Shown here: positions 4,446 to 33,025 of the stretch, in pieces
How positions within the stretch are numbered: position 1 is the stretch's first letter
How the letters are laid out: each line of letters begins with the position of its first letter
Assembly: GCA_028685295.1 (NCBI GenBank)
Contig: JAQUEL010000011.1
Location: 1 to 34,536, forward strand
Source: a bacterium
Lineage (GTDB): Bacteria; UBP13; UBA5359
Reading direction: 5' to 3'
DNA length: 34,536 bases
Notes under the pieces: generated by a model
Told to the model about the DNA's origin: nothing
Databases searched by the model: none
What the model saw: only the letters and a program-made list of their open reading frames with translations
Translations under genes and position numbers: made by a program

Positions 4446-7148
4446 ATGGGAACCCAGAAATCGGAATTGGATAATAAACAATCAGCAACGCACACGGAGG
4501 AAGAATTTCTGAAAGAGATGTCCAGCTCTTATAATCCTTCTGAAGTTGAGCAGCGCTGGTCCTCATACTGGATAGATAAAGGTGTTTTTCATGCAGAAGT
4601 GGATCATGATAAGGAACCTTTCACCATTGTTATACCTCCGCCAAACATTACCGGATCTCTGCATATGGGGCATGCTTTAAATGATACCATACAGGATATA
4701 TTGATTCGTTCTCAGCGCATGCGCGGCAAGGAAGCTCTCTGGCTGCCGGGCACAGATCATGCGGGGATAGCTACCCAAAACGTAGTGGAACGCAACCTGG
4801 CCGCAGAAGGGCTAAGGAAGGAAGATCTGGGACGTGAGGCCTTTGTTGAAAGGGTCTGGCAGTGGCGCAAGCAGTATGGGAATACCATCATCAACCAGCT
4901 GAAGCGGTTGGGAGCTTCATGCGACTGGCAACGTGAACGTTTCACTATGGATGAGAAATACTCCGCTGCAGTGCGTAAAGTCTTTGTTACGCTCTATGAG
5001 AAGGGGTATATCTACCGCGATAAATATATTATTAACTGGTGTCCTCGTTGCATGACGGCCATCTCGGATATCGAGGTGGAGTATTCTGAGGAGATGGGCA
5101 ATCTTTATTTCATTAAATATCCCGGTGTGGATGGTGATGATATTATCGTCGCCACCACCCGCCCGGAGACGATGCTTGGAGATACCGCCGTTGCGGTAAA
5201 TCCTGAAGATAAACGTTATGCCTCTTTGGCAGGTTGCAAGCTGACTCTGCCTTTGACAGGCCGTAAGATACCGATTATTGCTGATACCTATGTTGATCCA
5301 GCCTTCGGTACCGGTGCTGTCAAGATTACGCCGGCTCATGACCCCAATGACTTTGAGGTCGGCCTTCGGCATAGTTTGGAGCAGATAACCGTTATCGGCA
5401 ATGATGCACGCATGACGGAAGCTGCCGGTAAATATGCCGGCCTGAATAGATACGAAGCCAGGGAAGCGATAATCAAGGATCTGGAAGCCGCCGGATTATT
5501 AGTAAAAATTGAGCCTTACCAGCATTCTGTGGGGCATTGCTATCGTTGTAATACGGTTATAGAACCTTTGATATCACTACAATGGTTCATGCGCATGAAG
5601 GAACTGGCTGCACCTGCTATCCGGGCGGTTGTTGATGGACGGATACGTTTTGTGCCGGAAAGGTGGACTAAGGTCTACTTAGATTGGATGGAGCACATCC
5701 GTGATTGGTGCATCTCTCGTCAGATATGGTGGGGGCACCGGCTGCCGGTTTGGTATTGTAATGAATGCGGTGAGATGATAATCAGCGAAGAGGCTCCGTC
5801 ATCCTGCACTAAATGCAATGCTGTGGCGCTGTGCCGGGAAACCGATGTTCTGGATACCTGGTTCAGCTCAGCGCTATGGCCCTTTGCTACCATGGGCTGG
5901 CCGGAGAAAACACCGGAAGTGAATTATTTCTATCCCACTTCAGTTCTGGTAACAGGGCATGAGATCATCTATTTTTGGGTATCACGTATGATTATGCAGG
6001 GGTTGGAGTTTATGGGAGAGATACCCTTCCACACGGTATATATTCATGGCATCGTCCGTGATGAATCCGGCAAAAAGATGAGCAAATCCTTGGGCAATGT
6101 TATAGATCCGCTGGAAATAATCGACCGCTACGGCACCGATGCTCTGCGCTTTGCCATGGTGGCTTTCTCTGCTACCGGCCAGGATATCTATCTTTCGGAT
6201 GAAAAGTTTGAGACCTGTCGCAATTTTGCCAATAAGATATGGAACGCTTCGCGCTTTGTAATGATGAATCTTACAGATTACTCTTCGACGGAAGAGGAGA
6301 TTACCGATCTCTCACTGGCAGATCGCTGGATTTTGAGCCGTTATAATACGTTGATAGGGGAGATTACCGGTTTATTGGATAGCCTGGATTTTTGCGAAGC
6401 CGGCAAACGGCTCTACGAATTCATCTGGAGCGAATTCTGTGATTGGTATTTGGAAATGGTAAAGCCTCTCCTTTACAGCAAAGACAAAGCAACACCTGCT
6501 CGCAAAGCGGCACAGCAGACGCTATGGCGGGTATTGGATGGTTGCATGCGTTTGTTGCATCCGTATATGCCGTACATAACCGAGGAAATATGGCAAAGGT
6601 TGAATCCCGACAAAGGGGTATCCGTGGCCATAAGCGCCTGGCCTGCCAGAAACGAATCTCGCATGGATCTTTCGCTGGAGAATGATGTCCGGGCTGTAAT
6701 GGAGTTGATTCGGGCTGTCCGCAATATGAGGGCTGAGGTCCGAGTGCCTCAGGGTGCCCAGGTATCGATCACCATATCGGCGCCGGAGCGTGACCTGGAC
6801 CTGGTCAGGGTGGCTCAAGATTACATAAGGACGCTGGCCAGGGTTTCGGAAATAAATATGTTGGGCCATCTCCATGAAAAACCGACAAAGGCTATGAGCG
6901 CTGTAGTGAGTGATATCGAGATATACCTGCCGCTGGAAGGGATTATCGATCTGAGTAAAGAGCAGGAACGCCTGTCCAAGGAGTTGAAAACTGTTCAGGT
7001 TGAGATTGCTAAAGTAGAGAAGAAACTGTTGAACCAGGAATTCATTCAGAAGGCGCCTCAGGAAGTAGTTCAGCGCGAAAAGACCAAAAAGGCGGAATTG
7101 CAGCAGCGCCGTATAAGATTACAGCAACGTTTGGAAGATATCGCATGA
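4446..7148 (+). CDS. valS: valyl-tRNA synthetase
   Basis: This class I aminoacyl-tRNA synthetase charges tRNA-Val. It shows the HIGH-type signature in [13 protein letters not shown] (about 64-78), KMSKS at about 544-548, an editing (CP1) domain with the [12 protein letters not shown] block, CxxC pairs typical of zinc-binding inserts (WCPRC, WYCNEC, SCTKC), and a C-terminal coiled-coil tRNA-binding arm. It is 900 residues with this start. The ATG at 4446 is chosen because GGAGGG lies at 4435-4440. A GTG at 4365 overlapping the lon stop has no such site, and an ATG at 4518 would also keep all motifs. There is no room for a T-box leader between lon and valS. Its stop overlaps the folC start. Confidence 0.95.
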
Positions 7149-8515
7149 TCCTCAGCCATAAGCATGTGGCCGATAGTCAATCTGAAAACAACTCACAGCT
7201 GGTAACTGGGCCCTGCAGACAGAGTTACGGAGATATAATATCCGTACTCAATGAGAGCCATAATCGCAGGATCAAGCCCGGTCTGTCGCGAATTACAGCA
7301 TTGCTAACGGCTATGGGAAATCCGCATCATAATTTTCCTGCTATTCATATCGCCGGCACGAATGGTAAAGGATCGGTAGCCGCCATGTTATCTGCTATAT
7401 TGGCAGCCGGCGGCTTAAAAACAGGGCTCTATACGTCACCGCATCTTGAAGATTACAGAGAGAGGATACGCCTGAACGGCAAACCGATTCCATGTGACCA
7501 GTTAAGAGCTCTATTCGAATCGCTTCCTGTCCCAGCCGATGATATGCCGTATAACGACAAGCCCACCCCCTATGAATTGAGCACCGCTATAGCTTTTGCC
7601 TGGTTCAGCCGGCAGAAAGCGGATATAGCTGTGGTGGAAACCGGTATGGGCGGCAGGTGGGATGCCACCAATGCGCTTGAAAATGTCTTGATCTCTATTA
7701 TTACCAGTGTATCTTACGATCATTGCCATTATCTAGGCAGTGATTTGATCTCTATAGCTGCCGAGAAGGCCGGTATCATCAAGAAAGGGGTGCCGGTCCT
7801 GACAGGGGCTTCCGAGCCTGCATATACGGCCATAGCCTCGGCTGCCAAGGCAGCAGGCAGCCGGATTTACGCCTGTGGGCGGGAGATACTCTGGGAGTGC
7901 GTATCCGATGACACCGACGCCGTCTTTATGAATATCTTCCTTGATGGCAAGCTTATTCCCGGTCTACCTAAGTCTCTTCAGGGCCGTCATCAAGAGATGA
8001 ATCTGGCACTGGCATCAGCGGCCGCAAATCTTCTACCGGCGAGATACCGTCCGGATACGACTACGATGCGCGCGGGACTGTCTATGGTGGAATGGCCGGG
8101 GCGTTTGGAAATCTTTTCCGGCACACCCTCGTTTTTACTGGACGGCGCTCATAATCCTGATGGTATGGAGGCGCTTTGTAATTATCTGGATACTATAACA
8201 GGCCGCTATTCGCATTTGGCTACAGTGATAGGCATACTGGCAGATAAGGATGCATCCGCTATGCTAGGGCGTTTGTCACAATCGGTTTCTAATCCGTATT
8301 TCGTTTCGCCTGCCAGTGACAGGGCGCTCTCTGCAAAGGAGATGGCGGCCATGTGGCCACGCTCCGGTGAGGCTACGGCCTGTAAGGATTTACCGGAAGC
8401 TATACGTCTGGCAACATCTACTGTTGGTGACAATGGCCTGATCTGCATAGCCGGTTCCCTTTATTTGGTAGGGGAAGCCCGCACCTTGCTGAGAGGCGGC
8501 AAGAGATGCCGTTAA
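7145..8515 (+). CDS. folC: bifunctional folylpolyglutamate/dihydrofolate synthase
   Basis: FolC ligates glutamate to folates, and in many bacteria also to dihydropteroate, using ATP. The P-loop [15 protein letters not shown] lies at about residues 68-82. The Mur-ligase-type blocks [21 protein letters not shown] and the C-terminal DGAHNPDGM follow. At 456 residues it is slightly long for the family, with roughly 20 extra N-terminal residues before the conserved KPGLSRI region. The ATG overlaps the valS stop (ATGA), indicating translational coupling. Confidence 0.92.
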
Positions 8516-9057
8516 CGCCTGCAAAAAAAAGAGCCTCTCTCTGGCTCTCGGCATCTCTGCTTTGCGGTCTCTTTTGCGGCATCTTTCTTTTGCCTAAATT
8601 GATGCCGCAAAAGAGCGTGGATACTTTGGAGGATATAGCTGTAATTCAATCACCGGCTTCTCAAATGACGGCTGACGGTAACCGGCGCTCATCTGCAGAC
8701 GCTTCATCGGCGTACTGTGCCGAAGCAACGGCAGAGAGCCCTGATAAGAGAGTTCTATCGGCGCTATCAGCCGACACGCCGACATCTTCCGATAGTAATG
8801 AGCGGACGATGAGCGCTTCTTCCACAGAGAACCTTACAGAGACCTTCTCCATTCAGGTAGGCAGTTTTTTTTCGTATGATAATGCTGAAGCTATGGCCGA
8901 TCGAATGAAATCCAGAGGGTATAGGCCTGTGATGATCATTCCTGATGGAGCATCAACCAAAGTGCTTGTCGGCAGCTATAACGACAGAAGAACAGCTGCC
9001 TTAGAAGCGGAAAAGCTGCAACAATCCGGCTGTCCGGCCTTTGTCAGAGACGATTAA
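8506..9057 (+). CDS. SPOR-domain membrane protein
   Basis: This 183-residue protein has a short basic N-terminus, one membrane segment (about residues 12-30), a Ser/Thr/Ala-rich low-complexity linker (about 40-110), and a C-terminal SPOR-like repeat (about 112-181, starting FSIQVGSFF and including VLVGSYNDRRTA). SPOR domains bind denuded septal peptidoglycan, so the domain probably sits outside the membrane with a single inside-out anchor. The start overlaps the end of folC by 10 nt, and GAGGCGG just upstream can serve as ribosome binding site. folC-SPOR neighbours are common in Clostridia. No enzymatic role is seen. Confidence 0.8.
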   Translation: MPLTPAKKRASLWLSASLLCGLFCGIFLLPKLMPQKSVDTLEDIAVIQSPASQMTADGNRRSSADASSAYCAEATAESPDKRVLSALSADTPTSSDSNERTMSASSTENLTETFSIQVGSFFSYDNAEAMADRMKSRGYRPVMIIPDGASTKVLVGSYNDRRTAALEAEKLQQSGCPAFVRDD

Positions 9058-9100
9058 GCAATAATTTTCCTTATATGACAGATTTATACCTGAAAGCCAT

Positions 9101-9180
9101 TTTGCCGCCTGCTATTATTTAATATGAAATCGGTGGTAAGCCGCTGTAACTATCGTCAATAGATAATATCAGGCGGTGGG
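9101..9180 (+). promoter_or_regulatory. structured leader RNA abutting the ribosome binding site
   Basis: Two segments about 40 nt apart form a near-continuous helix: 9105-9111 with 9170-9176 (7 GC-rich pairs), one C/T mismatch, then 9113-9121 with 9160-9168. Possible T-G pairs (9101-9104 with 9177-9180) would extend it into GGGAGG, the ribosome binding site of the downstream gene at 9178-9183. The closed loop of about 38 nt holds a small hairpin with CGGT and GCCG arms (9131-9134 with 9140-9143). This looks like a translational control element. It does not match any riboswitch class I can recall. GCCGCTGTAAC faintly resembles part of the cobalamin riboswitch core, but most of that core is absent. 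Confidence 0.45.
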
Positions 9181-9188
9181 AGGTAAGC

Positions 9189-10250
9189 ATGGATAGACAA
9201 TATTATCTTGATTTAGCTGCAAAGGGGTTATGCATGCCTATAGGAGCAGATCTGATACTGCATGAGCATGAGGATGCAGAGGCAATTCTGTTGGATGGCG
9301 AGCGCTTGGGTGAAATACTGAAGGAGACGGCATATCATTTTTCCACCCCATTAGCATTTCCTCATATGAATCTGGAACTGGAGAAGGAAATCTTGCTGAA
9401 GATGATCGGCGTTGCTTCAGAAGAGATGACGGGATTTCGTTTTGCAACGGCACCTGACTCTAATATGTTCGCTTTAGTGAAGGAAAAGCTAGGAGAGCTA
9501 TTTTTGCCAGCAATGCAAGCTCAAATTGAGGCGCTCAGGTATGTTGCCGCCAGAAGAGAACTCTTGCCTGTGGGAATGTCTATAGGGCCTTTCTCATTGA
9601 TGACCAAGCTGGTTGCCGACCCTATTATACCGGTATGTATGGCAGGAAGAGGCGTTACGTCTGATGAGGATGCTGAGATCAGGCTTGTAGAGAAAGCTCT
9701 TGATCTGGGTTTGCTTATCATATTGCACAACATACGGATGCAAATCGAGGCAGGGGCTAAGGCTCTCTTTATAGCTGAACCGGCAGCAAATAAAGTATAT
9801 TTTTCGCCGAATCAGCTTAAATGCGGCTCGGATATCTTTGAGCGTTACGTGATGGCGTATAATTATCAGATCAAGGCCTTGCTTGATTTTTACGGCGTAG
9901 ACCTTATCTTTCACTGTTGTGGTGAGTTGATCGATTATATGGTGGAAGAGTTTGTAAAGCTGGATCCGGCTATATTGAGCCTGGGCAGTTCACGTAAGCT
10001 GTGGGAAGATGCGGCGTTGGTGCCGAAGAGCACGGTACTCTTCGGGAATCTTCCATCCAAGCAGTTCTATTCAGATAGTCTGATAACAGTGGAAGAGGTT
10101 ATCAAGTATGGGAAGGAACTCCTTGAGAAGATGCGGCAGATCGGCCATCCATTTATTCTGGGGAGTGAATGTGATATCCTCAGCGTTTCCGGCTGTCAGG
10201 AGACTATTATGCGAAAAGCCGAAGCGATTCAAGACGCTTTGCTGGCGTAA
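9189..10250 (+). CDS. uroporphyrinogen decarboxylase-fold methyltransferase (MtaA/CmuA-like)
   Basis: This 353-residue protein belongs to the UroD superfamily branch that holds MtaA, MtbA and CmuA, zinc enzymes that move methyl groups between corrinoid proteins and thiols. It keeps the zinc-site pattern H242-x-C244 in LIFHCCGEL and a C-terminal C328 in FILGSECD, which fit a methyltransferase rather than heme synthesis. No hem genes are nearby. The start has GGGAGG at 9178-9183 with 5-nt spacing. A folded leader lies immediately upstream. Downstream are an ArsR repressor, an ArsP-like permease and a thioredoxin-like protein, but no corrinoid protein, so the methyl donor and acceptor are unknown. 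A role with methylated arsenicals is inference only. Confidence 0.8.
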   Translation: MDRQYYLDLAAKGLCMPIGADLILHEHEDAEAILLDGERLGEILKETAYHFSTPLAFPHMNLELEKEILLKMIGVASEEMTGFRFATAPDSNMFALVKEKLGELFLPAMQAQIEALRYVAARRELLPVGMSIGPFSLMTKLVADPIIPVCMAGRGVTSDEDAEIRLVEKALDLGLLIILHNIRMQIEAGAKALFIAEPAANKVYFSPNQLKCGSDIFERYVMAYNYQIKALLDFYGVDLIFHCCGELIDYMVEEFVKLDPAILSLGSSRKLWEDAALVPKSTVLFGNLPSKQFYSDSLITVEEVIKYGKELLEKMRQIGHPFILGSECDILSVSGCQETIMRKAEAIQDALLA

Positions 10251-10279
10251 CAAGCTTCCTCAACATTGTTTAGAGGCTA

Positions 10280-10308
10280 TTGACATTCATAAGTTACGAC
10301 GTTAATAT
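10280..10308 (+). promoter_or_regulatory. sigma-A promoter of the arsR operon
   Basis: A consensus TTGACA at 10280-10285 is followed after 17 nt by TAATAT at 10303-10308. The -10 overlaps a perfect inverted repeat (10305-10324), so a bound repressor would block initiation. Confidence 0.7.
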
Positions 10309-10324
10309 AAACGTATGTTTATAT
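10305..10324. promoter_or_regulatory. palindromic operator, probable ArsR binding site
   Basis: Perfect 8-bp arms ATATAAAC and GTTTATAT are separated by GTAT. AT-rich inverted repeats of this kind are typical ArsR/SmtB sites. It overlaps the promoter -10 and the predicted transcription start, directly upstream of the ArsR gene, which implies autorepression. Confidence 0.7.
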
Positions 10325-10344
10325 GTTTATGGAGGAATGTGACC

Positions 10345-10641
10345 TTGATATCCATGGCAGATATATTTAAGGCTCTTGGAGACCCTACCAGATTGAAGAT
10401 TATCGAGATATTGTCACATAGCGAGGAGATATGCGTTTGTAAGATAACAGAGGAGTTGGAAATGACCCAGCCAGCCGTATCCCATCATCTTTTAATCTTG
10501 AAGCATGTCGGATTGGTTGAATCTAGAAGATGCGGACGCTGGATGCATTATTCTCTTTGCCGTGAAGCCTTGCTGCATACCGTACAGCAGTTCGTGATAA
10601 CGCTGACGGAAGAGGTGCAGGCAATGCCGGGCAGCAAATGA
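10345..10641 (+). CDS. arsR: ArsR-family metalloid-responsive repressor
   Basis: A 98-residue winged helix-turn-helix protein. After IFKALGDPTRLKIIEIL it has EICVCKI, which matches the ELCVCDL As(III)/Sb(III) site of classical ArsR, with cysteines at 30 and 32. The recognition helix region is MTQPAVSHHLLILK, and the wing contains GRWMHYSL. In the family, metalloid binding releases the protein from DNA. The TTG at 10345 is chosen because GGAGGA (10331-10336) is 8 nt upstream. The ATG at 10354 would also be possible with longer spacing. An ATG at 10315 lies inside the operator at the predicted transcription start and is unlikely to be used. It heads the permease/thioredoxin-like operon. Confidence 0.9.
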   Translation: MISMADIFKALGDPTRLKIIEILSHSEEICVCKITEELEMTQPAVSHHLLILKHVGLVESRRCGRWMHYSLCREALLHTVQQFVITLTEEVQAMPGSK

Positions 10642-10726
10642 ATCATCCGGTATTATGCATGAAAAAGAAGCAGTAGTCGTCGGTCTTTAACAACGAGCGA
10701 TGAGACGAATAGGAGAAGGATGTTAG

Positions 10727-11743
10727 ATGAATTTGCTTATATCGTTTTTGAGTATTCTAAATAACCAGCTTCTTAAAATGGAATGGCTGGACCAACTGAT
10801 ACAAGTACTCGTTGAGAGAGTTTTTGGCCTGGATATGAGTAATAGGCTTGGCGGCAGCATTCACTTCTTCATTTACGATACTGCAAAAATATTTATCCTT
10901 CTTTCAGTGCTCATTTTTGTTATCTCCTTTATTCAAAGCTATTTTCCGCCTGAGCGGACCCGTGCGATTCTTGGACGAGTTAATGGAATTATCGCTAATG
11001 TCCTAGCCGCATTATTGGGAACGGTTACTCCGTTTTGTTCCTGCTCATCAATTCCGCTTTTCATCGGCTTCACCAGCGCAGGGTTGCCTATCGGCGTTAC
11101 CTTCTCTTTTTTGATCTCCTCTCCTTTGGTCGACTTGGCGTCAATCCTCTTATTAGCCGGTATTTTTAACTGGAAAATAGCTCTTGCTTATGTGGTAGTG
11201 GGGCTTGTTTTGGCTGTAACCGGAGGGACCGTTATCAGCAAGCTGAGACTGGAAAAATATGTGGAACCATTTGTTTTCAGCAATCGGATGGCAGCAGCCG
11301 GTGCGCCTCAAATAAACCGGAGCGCTCGCCTGGCTTTCGCCAGGGAGCAAGCATCGGAGATCATTCATAAGGTCTGGCCCTATATTCTTATCGGTGTCGC
11401 CATCGGTGCGCTTATTCATAACTGGATACCGGAAAATATTATCACAGCCGTTCTGGGTATAAAGAATACTTTCTCGGTATTGATTGTCACACTGATCGGT
11501 ATTCCGATGTATGCAGATATCTTCGGAACCTTGCCTGTAGCGGAGGCTCTTGTGGCAAAGGGTGTGGGAATTGGCACAGCACTCTCTTTTATGATGGCTG
11601 TAACGGCTCTGTCGTTACCATCGATGATCTTACTTAAAAAGGTTGTCAAAACCAAATTGTTGGTCATCTTTGTGGGCATTGTAACGTTAGGTATTATTGT
11701 AATCGGCTATCTTTTTAATGCGTTTGGATATCGGCTTATATAA
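10727..11743 (+). CDS. permease of the YraQ/DUF318 family (ArsP-like)
   Basis: A 338-residue polytopic inner-membrane protein with about eight hydrophobic segments. The family signature TPFCSCSSIPLFIGF (cysteines at 104 and 106) is followed by FLISSPLVD, and a second half-repeat contains the IPMYADIFGTLPVAEAL block. Family members include ArsP, which exports trivalent methylated and aromatic arsenicals. Placement behind an ArsR with a CVC site and before a thioredoxin-like partner supports metalloid export, but the substrate is inferred. The start has AGGAGAAGGA at 10711-10720 with 6-nt spacing. Confidence 0.85.
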   Translation: MNLLISFLSILNNQLLKMEWLDQLIQVLVERVFGLDMSNRLGGSIHFFIYDTAKIFILLSVLIFVISFIQSYFPPERTRAILGRVNGIIANVLAALLGTVTPFCSCSSIPLFIGFTSAGLPIGVTFSFLISSPLVDLASILLLAGIFNWKIALAYVVVGLVLAVTGGTVISKLRLEKYVEPFVFSNRMAAAGAPQINRSARLAFAREQASEIIHKVWPYILIGVAIGALIHNWIPENIITAVLGIKNTFSVLIVTLIGIPMYADIFGTLPVAEALVAKGVGIGTALSFMMAVTALSLPSMILLKKVVKTKLLVIFVGIVTLGIIVIGYLFNAFGYRLI

Positions 11744-11767
11744 AAAGAAAAACAAGGAGAAAGCAAC

Positions 11768-12076
11768 ATGGAAATCAAAGTTCTGGGTTCGGGGTGCGCC
11801 AACTGCGTCAAGCTGGAGAAGATAGTTAAAGAAGTGGCGGGTGAATTGGGTATTGCGGATCCCGTACAAAAAGTATCCGCTATTCAAGAGATGATGTCTT
11901 ATGGAATCATGGCCATGCCTGCTCTGGTGGTGGATGGCAAGGTAAAATTTTCCGGCAAGGTACCGGGTAAGGAAGAGATCAAGAATTACCTGCAAAGCGA
12001 GCAATGTGATGCATCTTGTGATTGTAACGGTGAATGCTGTTCTACGGAAGAAGATTGCGGCTGTGCGGCTAAATAG
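11768..12076 (+). CDS. thioredoxin-like small redox protein (MTH895/TM0996 family) with Cys-rich tail
   Basis: A 102-residue protein. The N-terminal 77 residues form a thioredoxin-fold domain with the GCANC redox pair (C10, C13) and the cis-proline in MAMPALVVDG (P51). This family is typically encoded beside YraQ/DUF318 permeases. A tail of about 25 residues holds seven cysteines (80, 84, 86, 90, 91, 97, 99), spaced as CxxxC, CxC, CC and CxC. Such a tail is not part of the domain and could bind As(III) or another soft metal. The start has AAGGAGA upstream at normal spacing, and the gene follows the permease by 24 nt. Confidence 0.85.
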   Translation: MEIKVLGSGCANCVKLEKIVKEVAGELGIADPVQKVSAIQEMMSYGIMAMPALVVDGKVKFSGKVPGKEEIKNYLQSEQCDASCDCNGECCSTEEDCGCAAK

Positions 12077-12086
12077 ATGTTTCTCT

Positions 12087-12112
12087 GATTAATGCTCTTC
12101 GTTAACGGGTAT
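12087..12112 (+). promoter_or_regulatory. candidate SigB-type promoter of the RsbW-like sensor gene
   Basis: GATTAA at 12087-12092 and GGGTAT at 12107-12112 are 14 nt apart. The Bacillus SigB consensus is GTTTAA, 12-15 nt, GGGTAT, so only one base differs. The predicted start near 12119 leaves an untranslated leader of about 77 nt. No comparable sigma-A promoter was seen in this gap. Confidence 0.45.
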
Positions 12113-12174
12113 ATCAAATTATCAACTCAATAGATGTATCGGCATTATAAAGAGAGCTGATACGGAAAGGGACT

Positions 12175-12189
12175 CGTGCTTTCTGCACG
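12175..12189 (+). other. small hairpin between ribosome binding site and start codon
   Basis: CGTGC and GCACG pair around a TTTCT loop. The purine-rich GGAAAGGGA (12164-12172) is otherwise 23 nt from the ATG at 12196. Folding this hairpin would bring it close to the start, so it may decide how the gene is translated. Confidence 0.35.
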
Positions 12190-12195
12190 GTTTAA

Positions 12196-28244: not shown

Positions 28245-28445
28245 ATGAGAAGAGAGAGAATCGATGCTTATATCGTAACCGGAGTGATTTCTGTGGCGGC
28301 AGGTATCCTGATAACTTCCTATCTCTATTCAAGGCAGCGTAGTCAGGATCCTTTACTGATGGCTGAGAAGATCGTCAAGGAATGCCGGGAGAAGATAGAG
28401 GAGATAGAGAAAGACCTGGTGACAATCAAAACCACCGAATCATAG
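28245..28445 (+). CDS. small single-span membrane protein with coiled coil
   Basis: A 66-residue protein of unknown function. Residues about 8-27 form one hydrophobic segment (YIVTGVISVAAGILITSYLY). The rest is charged, with a heptad-like stretch (about 40-62, EKIVKECREKIEEIEKDL) that should form a coiled coil in the cytoplasm. GAGAGGAGAG lies just before the ATG; an in-frame TTG at 28230 would swallow this site. The last 6 nt overlap the end of the convergent recombinase gene, so neither can have a separate terminator between them. Confidence 0.65.
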   Translation: MRRERIDAYIVTGVISVAAGILITSYLYSRQRSQDPLLMAEKIVKECREKIEEIEKDLVTIKTTES

Positions 28446-29330
28446 ATCTTCCAGCGCTGCGCGTTGTTTCTCCTGTGAAACGTGAGTATATATTTGTGTC
28501 GTTGATATGGAGGCATGTCCCAGAGTATCTTGCACTAAGCGCAGGTCATTGCCGCTTCTACGATAAAGGATGGTGGCAAAGGTATGGCGTAACTTATGGG
28601 GGGTTATATTCTCATGACGAGAGATATAGCCACGTTCACGGGCCAGATTGATATACTTGCGCAGCATATCCCTAATACCCTGGGGGGTGAAGCGGCAGCG
28701 CTTACGGCTGATGAAGAGGGGAGAGGAGGGGCTTTTGTCCTCTTTTTTCGCCAGATAAGCCTTTAAGGCTGAATCGGAGATACGGTTCAAAGGTATAACT
28801 CTCTCTTTATTGCCCTTACCGGTAACTTTCAGAGTATCTCCATGCAGGTCGCTTATGTTCAGACTGACAAGCTCCTGCACCCGCAGACCGGTGTTGAGAA
28901 AGAGAAGTATTATAGCGGTATCACGTTTGTTGCCGGTCAGCTCTTCAAGGCTGATCAGCTGGTTTTTCTCTTTCTCCGCCAGATAGACAGGCGTCCTGTT
29001 CTTGGTCAAACGGGGTAGCCTGACGTTGGCAGCAGGATTTTTTTCAACGACCTCTTCCTGAAAGAGATATTTGAAGAAGCTTTTAAGAGAGGCTATCTTA
29101 CGGGCCACGGAGCTCATGGCATAGCCCTTCTCCTGCAGAAAAACACTGTAAGCTCTGATCTCCGTAGATGAGACCGTATTTACGGCGGGAATCCGTTTGC
29201 GAGCGGCTCTATACCAGAGATAGAAAGTACGTAGGTCTATCTCATAGCCCTGACGAGTGTTGGGCGATTTGCCCTCACTGGCCAGGTACATAGCAAAATC
29301 ATCGACGTAATCAAAGAAATCTGCTGCCAT
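28440..29330 (-). CDS. tyrosine recombinase, XerC/XerD type
   Basis: A 296-residue site-specific recombinase of the usual XerC/XerD length. It has an N-terminal SAM-like DNA-binding domain (about 1-95) and a catalytic domain with R150 (TGLRVQEL), the beta-hairpin lysine region KGNKERVIP, H245xxR248 (HKLRHTFA), H272 (LGHASISTT) and nucleophile Y281 (IYTHV). All catalytic residues are present. No tRNA, phage gene or attachment repeat is nearby, so a chromosome-dimer-resolution or general Xer role is more likely than a phage integrase. It is on the opposite strand to its neighbours. GGAGGCAGCCGC precedes the ATG. Confidence 0.9.
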   Translation of the reverse strand: MAADFFDYVDDFAMYLASEGKSPNTRQGYEIDLRTFYLWYRAARKRIPAVNTVSSTEIRAYSVFLQEKGYAMSSVARKIASLKSFFKYLFQEEVVEKNPAANVRLPRLTKNRTPVYLAEKEKNQLISLEELTGNKRDTAIILLFLNTGLRVQELVSLNISDLHGDTLKVTGKGNKERVIPLNRISDSALKAYLAKKEDKSPSSPLFISRKRCRFTPQGIRDMLRKYINLARERGYISRHENITPHKLRHTFATILYRRSGNDLRLVQDTLGHASISTTQIYTHVSQEKQRAALEDL

Positions 29331-30601: not shown

Positions 30602-30707
30602 TGGATCTGCAGAAGCACCAATTTCTCAGAACCTTGCAGAGGCAATCTGCCGGGCGCAGTCATAAATAGAAAGGATAAGAATTGCCTAACGGCGAAGTAA
30701 TATCAAT

Positions 30708-32944: not shown

Positions 32945-32964
32945 CAGTTATTAAGCAAGATTGG
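32931..32964. terminator. strong inverted repeat between convergent genes
   Basis: A perfect 14-bp stem (32931-32944 with 32951-32964) closes a 6-nt loop. The left arm includes the last codons and stop of the M48 gene. No T run follows on either strand, so it is a terminator-like or 3'-end-stabilising hairpin rather than a textbook intrinsic terminator. Confidence 0.55.
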
Positions 32965-33025
32965 CGGAGCTGATTTCTCTCATAGTCACCCATCCAGGGC
33001 CCATACCCAGACTAAAAAGCGGCTC

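Follow-up and report, generated by a model that had tools for sequence, protein, structure and literature searches.

The lysozyme gene e of phage T4 offers the closest described parallel to the locus reported here. The long early RNA of this gene forms an inhibitory helix over the ribosome binding site (RBS), and its late promoters lie within the region encoding the 5' strand of that helix, while the late RNA is translated, as outlined for gene e in PMC3014915. By prediction, the present case works like gene e. In both, promoter sequence supplies the 5' strand and the Shine-Dalgarno sequence (SD) lies in the 3' strand, here as predicted features; likewise, the long RNA is closed and the short RNA more open, again by prediction at the present locus. 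In both genomes compared, the extended -10 of the predicted promoter falls within the 5' strand of the helix that closes the RBS. Unlike the phage gene, however, the gene considered here is chromosomal and belongs to an uncultured bacterium; its predicted promoter is of the sigma-70 type, and no early/late programme is known for it.

A similar logic is found in IS10/Tn10, where an RNA foldback shields the transposase from outside transcription. As in that element, read-through RNA would be silenced here and RNA from the gene's own promoter translated. Unlike in IS10/Tn10, no transposon gene adjoins the locus among the proteins scanned, and the likeness concerns a computed layout alone. Translational control at the RBS is also one mode of the cobalamin riboswitch (RF00174), from which the present leader differs in having no Rfam match. 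Controls of transposase expression of other kinds are described in PMC8450116 and PMC4265352.

Genomic context and orthologous leader

The window, that is, the whole stretch of DNA analysed, comprises 34,536 nucleotides. The leader precedes a gene on the forward strand (9189-10250) encoding a uroD-like protein of 353 aa, which belongs to the URO-D superfamily according to Pfam (PF01208, 45.2 bits against a cut-off of 23.9). The initial annotation had called this protein a corrinoid-linked methyltransferase. The superfamily assignment holds, but the protein stays below the cut-offs of the NCBIfam families MtaA/CmuA (TIGR01463; 26.9 bits, cut-off 235.4) and MtbA (NF041608; 28.8 bits, cut-off 600), and the methyltransferase label is only a superfamily guess from sequence. 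A Pfam scan of 20 proteins encoded in the window detected no corrinoid-protein domain.

Upstream, folC (7145-8515, forward strand) overlaps a gene for a SPOR-domain protein (8506-9057, forward strand), which adjoins the leader and is a possible source of read-through RNA. A terminator ending this upstream operon was considered and rejected, as no terminator-like site was found in 8900-9300. Downstream, the row of genes at 9189-12076 encodes the URO-D-like protein, an ArsR/SmtB regulator, an ArsP-type permease and an ArsE-family thioredoxin-like protein, and possibly represents an organo-arsenical or metal gene set.

Relatives were searched in two overlapping sets of 60 and 386 genomes, and both searches returned a close orthologue only in one genome besides the window's own (G001). 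The scan of genome contigs gave one locus. The leader comparison is therefore based on a single orthologous leader, on DHPR01000033.1 (L001) of genome G001, which is of the same genus and whose protein is 88% identical. In the remaining genome of the genus (87% complete), the protein had no match and folC only a weak one, and the distant protein matches L004-L007 (23-33% identity) lay outside the leader comparison. A repeat family was rejected as the origin of the leader, since no second copy turned up in any of the genus's three genomes; the best match beyond the leader itself and its orthologue had an E value of 0.044.

Helix upstream of the uroD-like gene

Two ungapped arms of 17 nt (9102-9118/9163-9179, forward strand) enclose a 44-nt loop and form 16 of 17 standard pairs, with G-U allowed, which confirms the 16-of-17 helix reported in the initial annotation. 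Alternative registers with the same score span from 9100/9181 to 9105/9176, and the loop of about 38 nt reported there matches the last of these, which has a 38-nt loop, whereas register 9102/9179 has the longer one. The outermost three of the 17 pairs are wobbles. In a longer context, the helix grows to 22 pairs (9096-9119/9162-9184). The 5' arm of this form (9096-9119) overlaps the spacer and the -10 of a predicted promoter, and the 3' arm (9162-9184) takes in the SD GGGAGG (9178-9183), located 5 nt before the ATG. The contact between helix and RBS, also proposed earlier, is thus present in the 22-pair form.

In the 34.5-kb window, the forward strand has three distinct places with stems of such quality (loop of 20-60 nt), and the reverse strand has none. 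The segment 9101-9200 has a minimum free energy (MFE) of -30.9 kcal/mol (z -2.75), which is equalled by one of 200 shuffles. The z value varies with the segment folded: it is -2.69 for 9058-9200 (5 of 300 shuffles as good) and -1.81 for 9058-9230 (12 of 200). When the window was tiled in 345 segments of 100 nt, with 40 shuffles for each tile, z was -2.75 or lower in 12 tiles, and the tile at 9101 ranked seventh (z -3.37). The helix exceeds local chance but has equals elsewhere in the window.

When the whole gap is folded, the orthologous leader again forms this helix, now interrupted by an internal loop and extended by additional outer pairs. Its z value is -3.35 to +12 (0 of 300 shuffles as good) and -1.78 to +42 (14 of 200). 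If folding begins only at position 5919, the orthologous leader adopts a different structure (z -1.36), which is equalled by 20 of 200 shuffles. Comparison of the 22 pairs with this one orthologue revealed four one-sided changes that still pair, two broken core pairs and no two-sided change.

Predicted promoter within the 5' arm

A promoter scan predicted a sigma-70-type promoter, CTGAAA-17-TATTAT, at 9090-9118 on the forward strand, in both genomes. A TG lies one base before the -10, and the resulting extended -10 (9110-9118) is located within the 5' arm (9096-9119). The predicted transcription start is at about 9125. By itself, the scan is not significant (1 site found against 0.9 expected), and the conservation of all 12 hexamer bases is shared by 11 of the 15 sites listed. 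Therefore, weight is placed on the invariant block described below, the promoter class and the enrichment of the extended -10. This class also precedes 6S RNA, lon and a miaB-like gene, and a TG-bearing site is present in 6 of 13 gaps listed. The motifs TGnTATnAT/TGnTATATT precede 21 of the 269 genes considered in the two genomes, a set that includes some orthologous pairs, compared to 9 of 269 in antisense and 2 of 269 in coding sequence; in 100 letter shuffles, the mean was 4.4 and the maximum 10.

The block 9069-9125, which comprises the promoter region and the 5' half of the foldback, is unchanged in the orthologue (0 of 57 positions), whereas 13 of 59 aligned positions differ in 9126-9188, in addition to a 4-nt gap. 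For comparison, 1155 of 1418 four-fold sites of neighbouring genes are identical between the two genomes. Invariant runs of this length are also found in coding sequence, and the 57-nt block ranks seventh in 13 kb. The block starts 27 nt before the helix does, and it stops at the predicted transcription start. Substitutions are absent from the 5' arm (0 of 24) and affect 6 of 25 positions in 9160-9184 (Fisher p 0.022), as would be expected if the upstream part were constrained as DNA. From this comparison, the conservation pattern does not track the helix. On these sequence grounds, the 5' arm likely overlaps a conserved promoter. As the predicted start coincides with the end of conservation, the 5' arm is probably missing from the gene's own mRNA.

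The orthologue contains a second promoter-like site without TG (TTGCCG-17-TAAAAT, L001 5918-5946), which would likewise start downstream of the 5' arm and is not listed in the window. A short upstream ORF, noticed by eye from an ATG at 9124, was rejected: the orthologue has ATA, followed by the 4-nt gap, so the ORF is not conserved.

Strength and retention of the promoter-RBS pairing

The duplex between the promoter block and the RBS ranks first (window) and second (orthologue) of 271 genes, with the geometry taken from the present case; one invariant arm is common to both genomes, so the two ranks are not independent. When a broad upstream region was considered, the shuffle z of the duplex was -3.42 in the window and -3.46 in the orthologue, corresponding to ranks 5 and 4 of 270. 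By raw duplex energy in the same region, the orthologue is fourth and the window lies outside the best 8 of 270. Genes with an extended -10 (21) do not generally have stronger RBS pairing than the rest (p 0.13).

Retention of the pairing was compared with neutral simulations. Of 3000 simulations run in each direction with the observed substitution types, 190 forward and 50 reverse ones kept a duplex as strong, and 65 and 45, respectively, kept the MFE. With random substitution types, the duplex was kept in 151 and 74 of 4000 and the MFE in 126 and 122 of 4000. Pairing strength as held across the 13 substitutions is hence reached in 1.5-6.3% of neutral simulations (MFE 1.5-3.2%, duplex 1.7-6.3%), levels that are uncorrected for the order of testing, since the duplex and MFE tests followed tests of pair count and SD opening that gave no signal. 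Indeed, the number of pairs kept (20 of 22) is neutral-like, 422 of 600 simulations keeping as many, and the SD opening energy of the orthologue is equalled by chance in 126 of 600 (to +42) and 334 of 600 (to +12).

The predicted cost of opening the SD in the window is 5.6-7.3 kcal/mol in RNA from 9058 against 1.3-4.5 kcal/mol in RNA from 9125. For the orthologue, 6.3 kcal/mol is predicted for the long RNA against 0.7-2.0 kcal/mol for the short one. Among the 271 genes, which are drawn from both genomes and include the gene itself, the long-minus-short difference of the window is reached by 4 (+12), 35 (+42) and 43 (+62), and that of the orthologue by 6, 6 and 5, respectively. In these models, the opening difference of the window is striking with the short tail (+12) only. 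In absolute terms, 25, 52 and 69 of the 271 genes bury the SD as deeply in the long RNA as the window does, and 42, 40 and 46 as deeply as the orthologue does, so burial of this depth is not rare. Taken together, the evidence for selection on the promoter-RBS pairing, as seen in the sequences, is moderate, not strong.

Proposed mechanism and alternative explanations

We favour, tentatively and with a confidence close to but below even, a model in which the 5' arm is the gene's promoter and read-through RNA is silenced by foldback onto the RBS. RNA polymerase would start near 9125, and the normal mRNA, with a leader about 64 nt long, would lack the 5' arm and have an ordinarily accessible RBS. 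RNA reading through from folC and the SPOR-domain gene, if produced, would carry the promoter sequence as its 5' arm, fold back over the RBS and the start codon and presumably be poorly translated. The uroD-like gene would thus be expressed from its own promoter only. The helix would be restricted to read-through RNA, as the own-promoter mRNA is expected to lack the 5' arm. The model draws on computed conservation, promoter match and pairing strength, and foldback silencing of read-through mRNA appears plausible on this basis. That a chromosomal promoter doubles as an anti-RBS, with its complementarity under selection and transcription from the neighbouring operon silenced at translation, is possible but rather doubtful from sequence. 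If true, an ordinary chromosomal gene would be insulated against transcription from adjacent genes by the silencing logic of T4 lysozyme, and other genomes could be searched by a simple promoter-RBS complementarity scan. For long "leader helices" predicted from DNA, a check against the promoter is advisable before they are labelled as riboswitches.

The same invariant block, promoter class and extended -10 enrichment would also be expected if the 5' arm were conserved for its role as promoter DNA, and if it were complementary to the RBS region only incidentally and without effect. This explanation is by no means improbable, though we would not expect it to be the right one: it agrees with the neutral retention of pairs (422 of 600), the many genes among the 271 with equally buried SDs and the two other places in the window with stems of equal quality. 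The pairing strength, with ranks 1-2 of 271 and, by z, 4-5 of 270, argues against it, as does its persistence despite 13 substitutions, which 1.5-6.3% of neutral simulations (uncorrected) reproduce. The block 9069-9125 could otherwise hold a DNA-level operator for a repressor, for example the nearby ArsR-type protein, with the RNA helix irrelevant. The invariance does extend 21 nt upstream of the -35, and an ArsR/SmtB gene lies downstream; nevertheless, this gene has its own promoter-like site (TTGACA-17-TAATAT), and by eye no further copy of the palindrome found at the arsR start (ATATAAACGTATGTTTATAT, 10305-10324) is visible ahead of uroD, so an operator is improbable.

The initial annotation regarded the leader as a translational riboswitch or protein-binding leader, in which a ligand or protein would open or close the helix in the gene's own mRNA, and noted a faint resemblance to the cobalamin riboswitch core. 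The geometry of the helix at the RBS is consistent with this reading, and the leader to +12 beats shuffles in both genomes (z -2.69, 5 of 300, and z -3.35, 0 of 300), but longer tails give z values of -1.81 and -1.78 (12 and 14 of 200 shuffles as good). In Rfam, only 6S RNA (167-344) lies above the cut-off over the whole window, with nothing at the leader, and a search of 9000-9300 returned four sub-threshold, chance-like matches, the best with 13.2 bits against a cut-off of 55. RF00174 and the other Rfam families were rejected, none reaching its gathering cut-off at 9101-9183, and the cobalamin resemblance was not borne out. The genome does have two cobalamin riboswitches, both on contigs other than the window's. 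Further points against a riboswitch or protein-binding leader come from the one orthologous leader, with no two-sided change, two broken core pairs and a 4-nt gap in the loop. Moreover, the 5' arm lies in the predicted conserved promoter, and among the promoter-like sites that the scan listed in 8900-9300, none lies 5' of this arm. The leader that remains downstream of the predicted start (9125-9200) has no excess structure (z -1.03; orthologue counterpart z -0.23). Such a reading of the leader is unlikely, and we consider a ligand- or protein-operated helix in the gene's own mRNA very improbable.

Other sites

A candidate for the same layout as at the uroD-like gene was noted at L041 10782 (reverse strand). 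The extended -10 of this gene is located at -110, and a strong duplex is predicted between its upstream region and its RBS (-37.1 kcal/mol, z -2.87).

The promoter-like site of arsR (10280-10324 region) has all 12 hexamer bases conserved, and its predicted start falls at the listed ATG. The arsR transcript is possibly leaderless by this prediction. The palindrome mentioned above spans the arsR start codon and is a possible ArsR operator, judged from its sequence.

Aligned identity with G001 falls to 14% at 30602-30707 and to 41% at 32945-33025. A gene for a phage-type integrase (28440-29330) lies at a distance of 1-4 kb, and the drops could mean either that genes have turned over or that colinearity ends there.

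An extended -10 promoter-like site, TTGTTC-17-TATTAT, precedes the gene with lon domains (1687-1850 region). The leader of this gene (1722-1850) has a z value of -3.29, with 1 of 300 shuffles as good. By eye, pairing in its first hairpin is kept in G001 through two one-sided changes, and the G001 fold lacks the long, AU-rich helix that lies closer to the start. The gap before the PAS-sensor gene (12077-12195) is identical at 110 of 119 positions between the genomes (92%) and contains, by eye, a conserved hairpin CGTGC..GCACG near its start.
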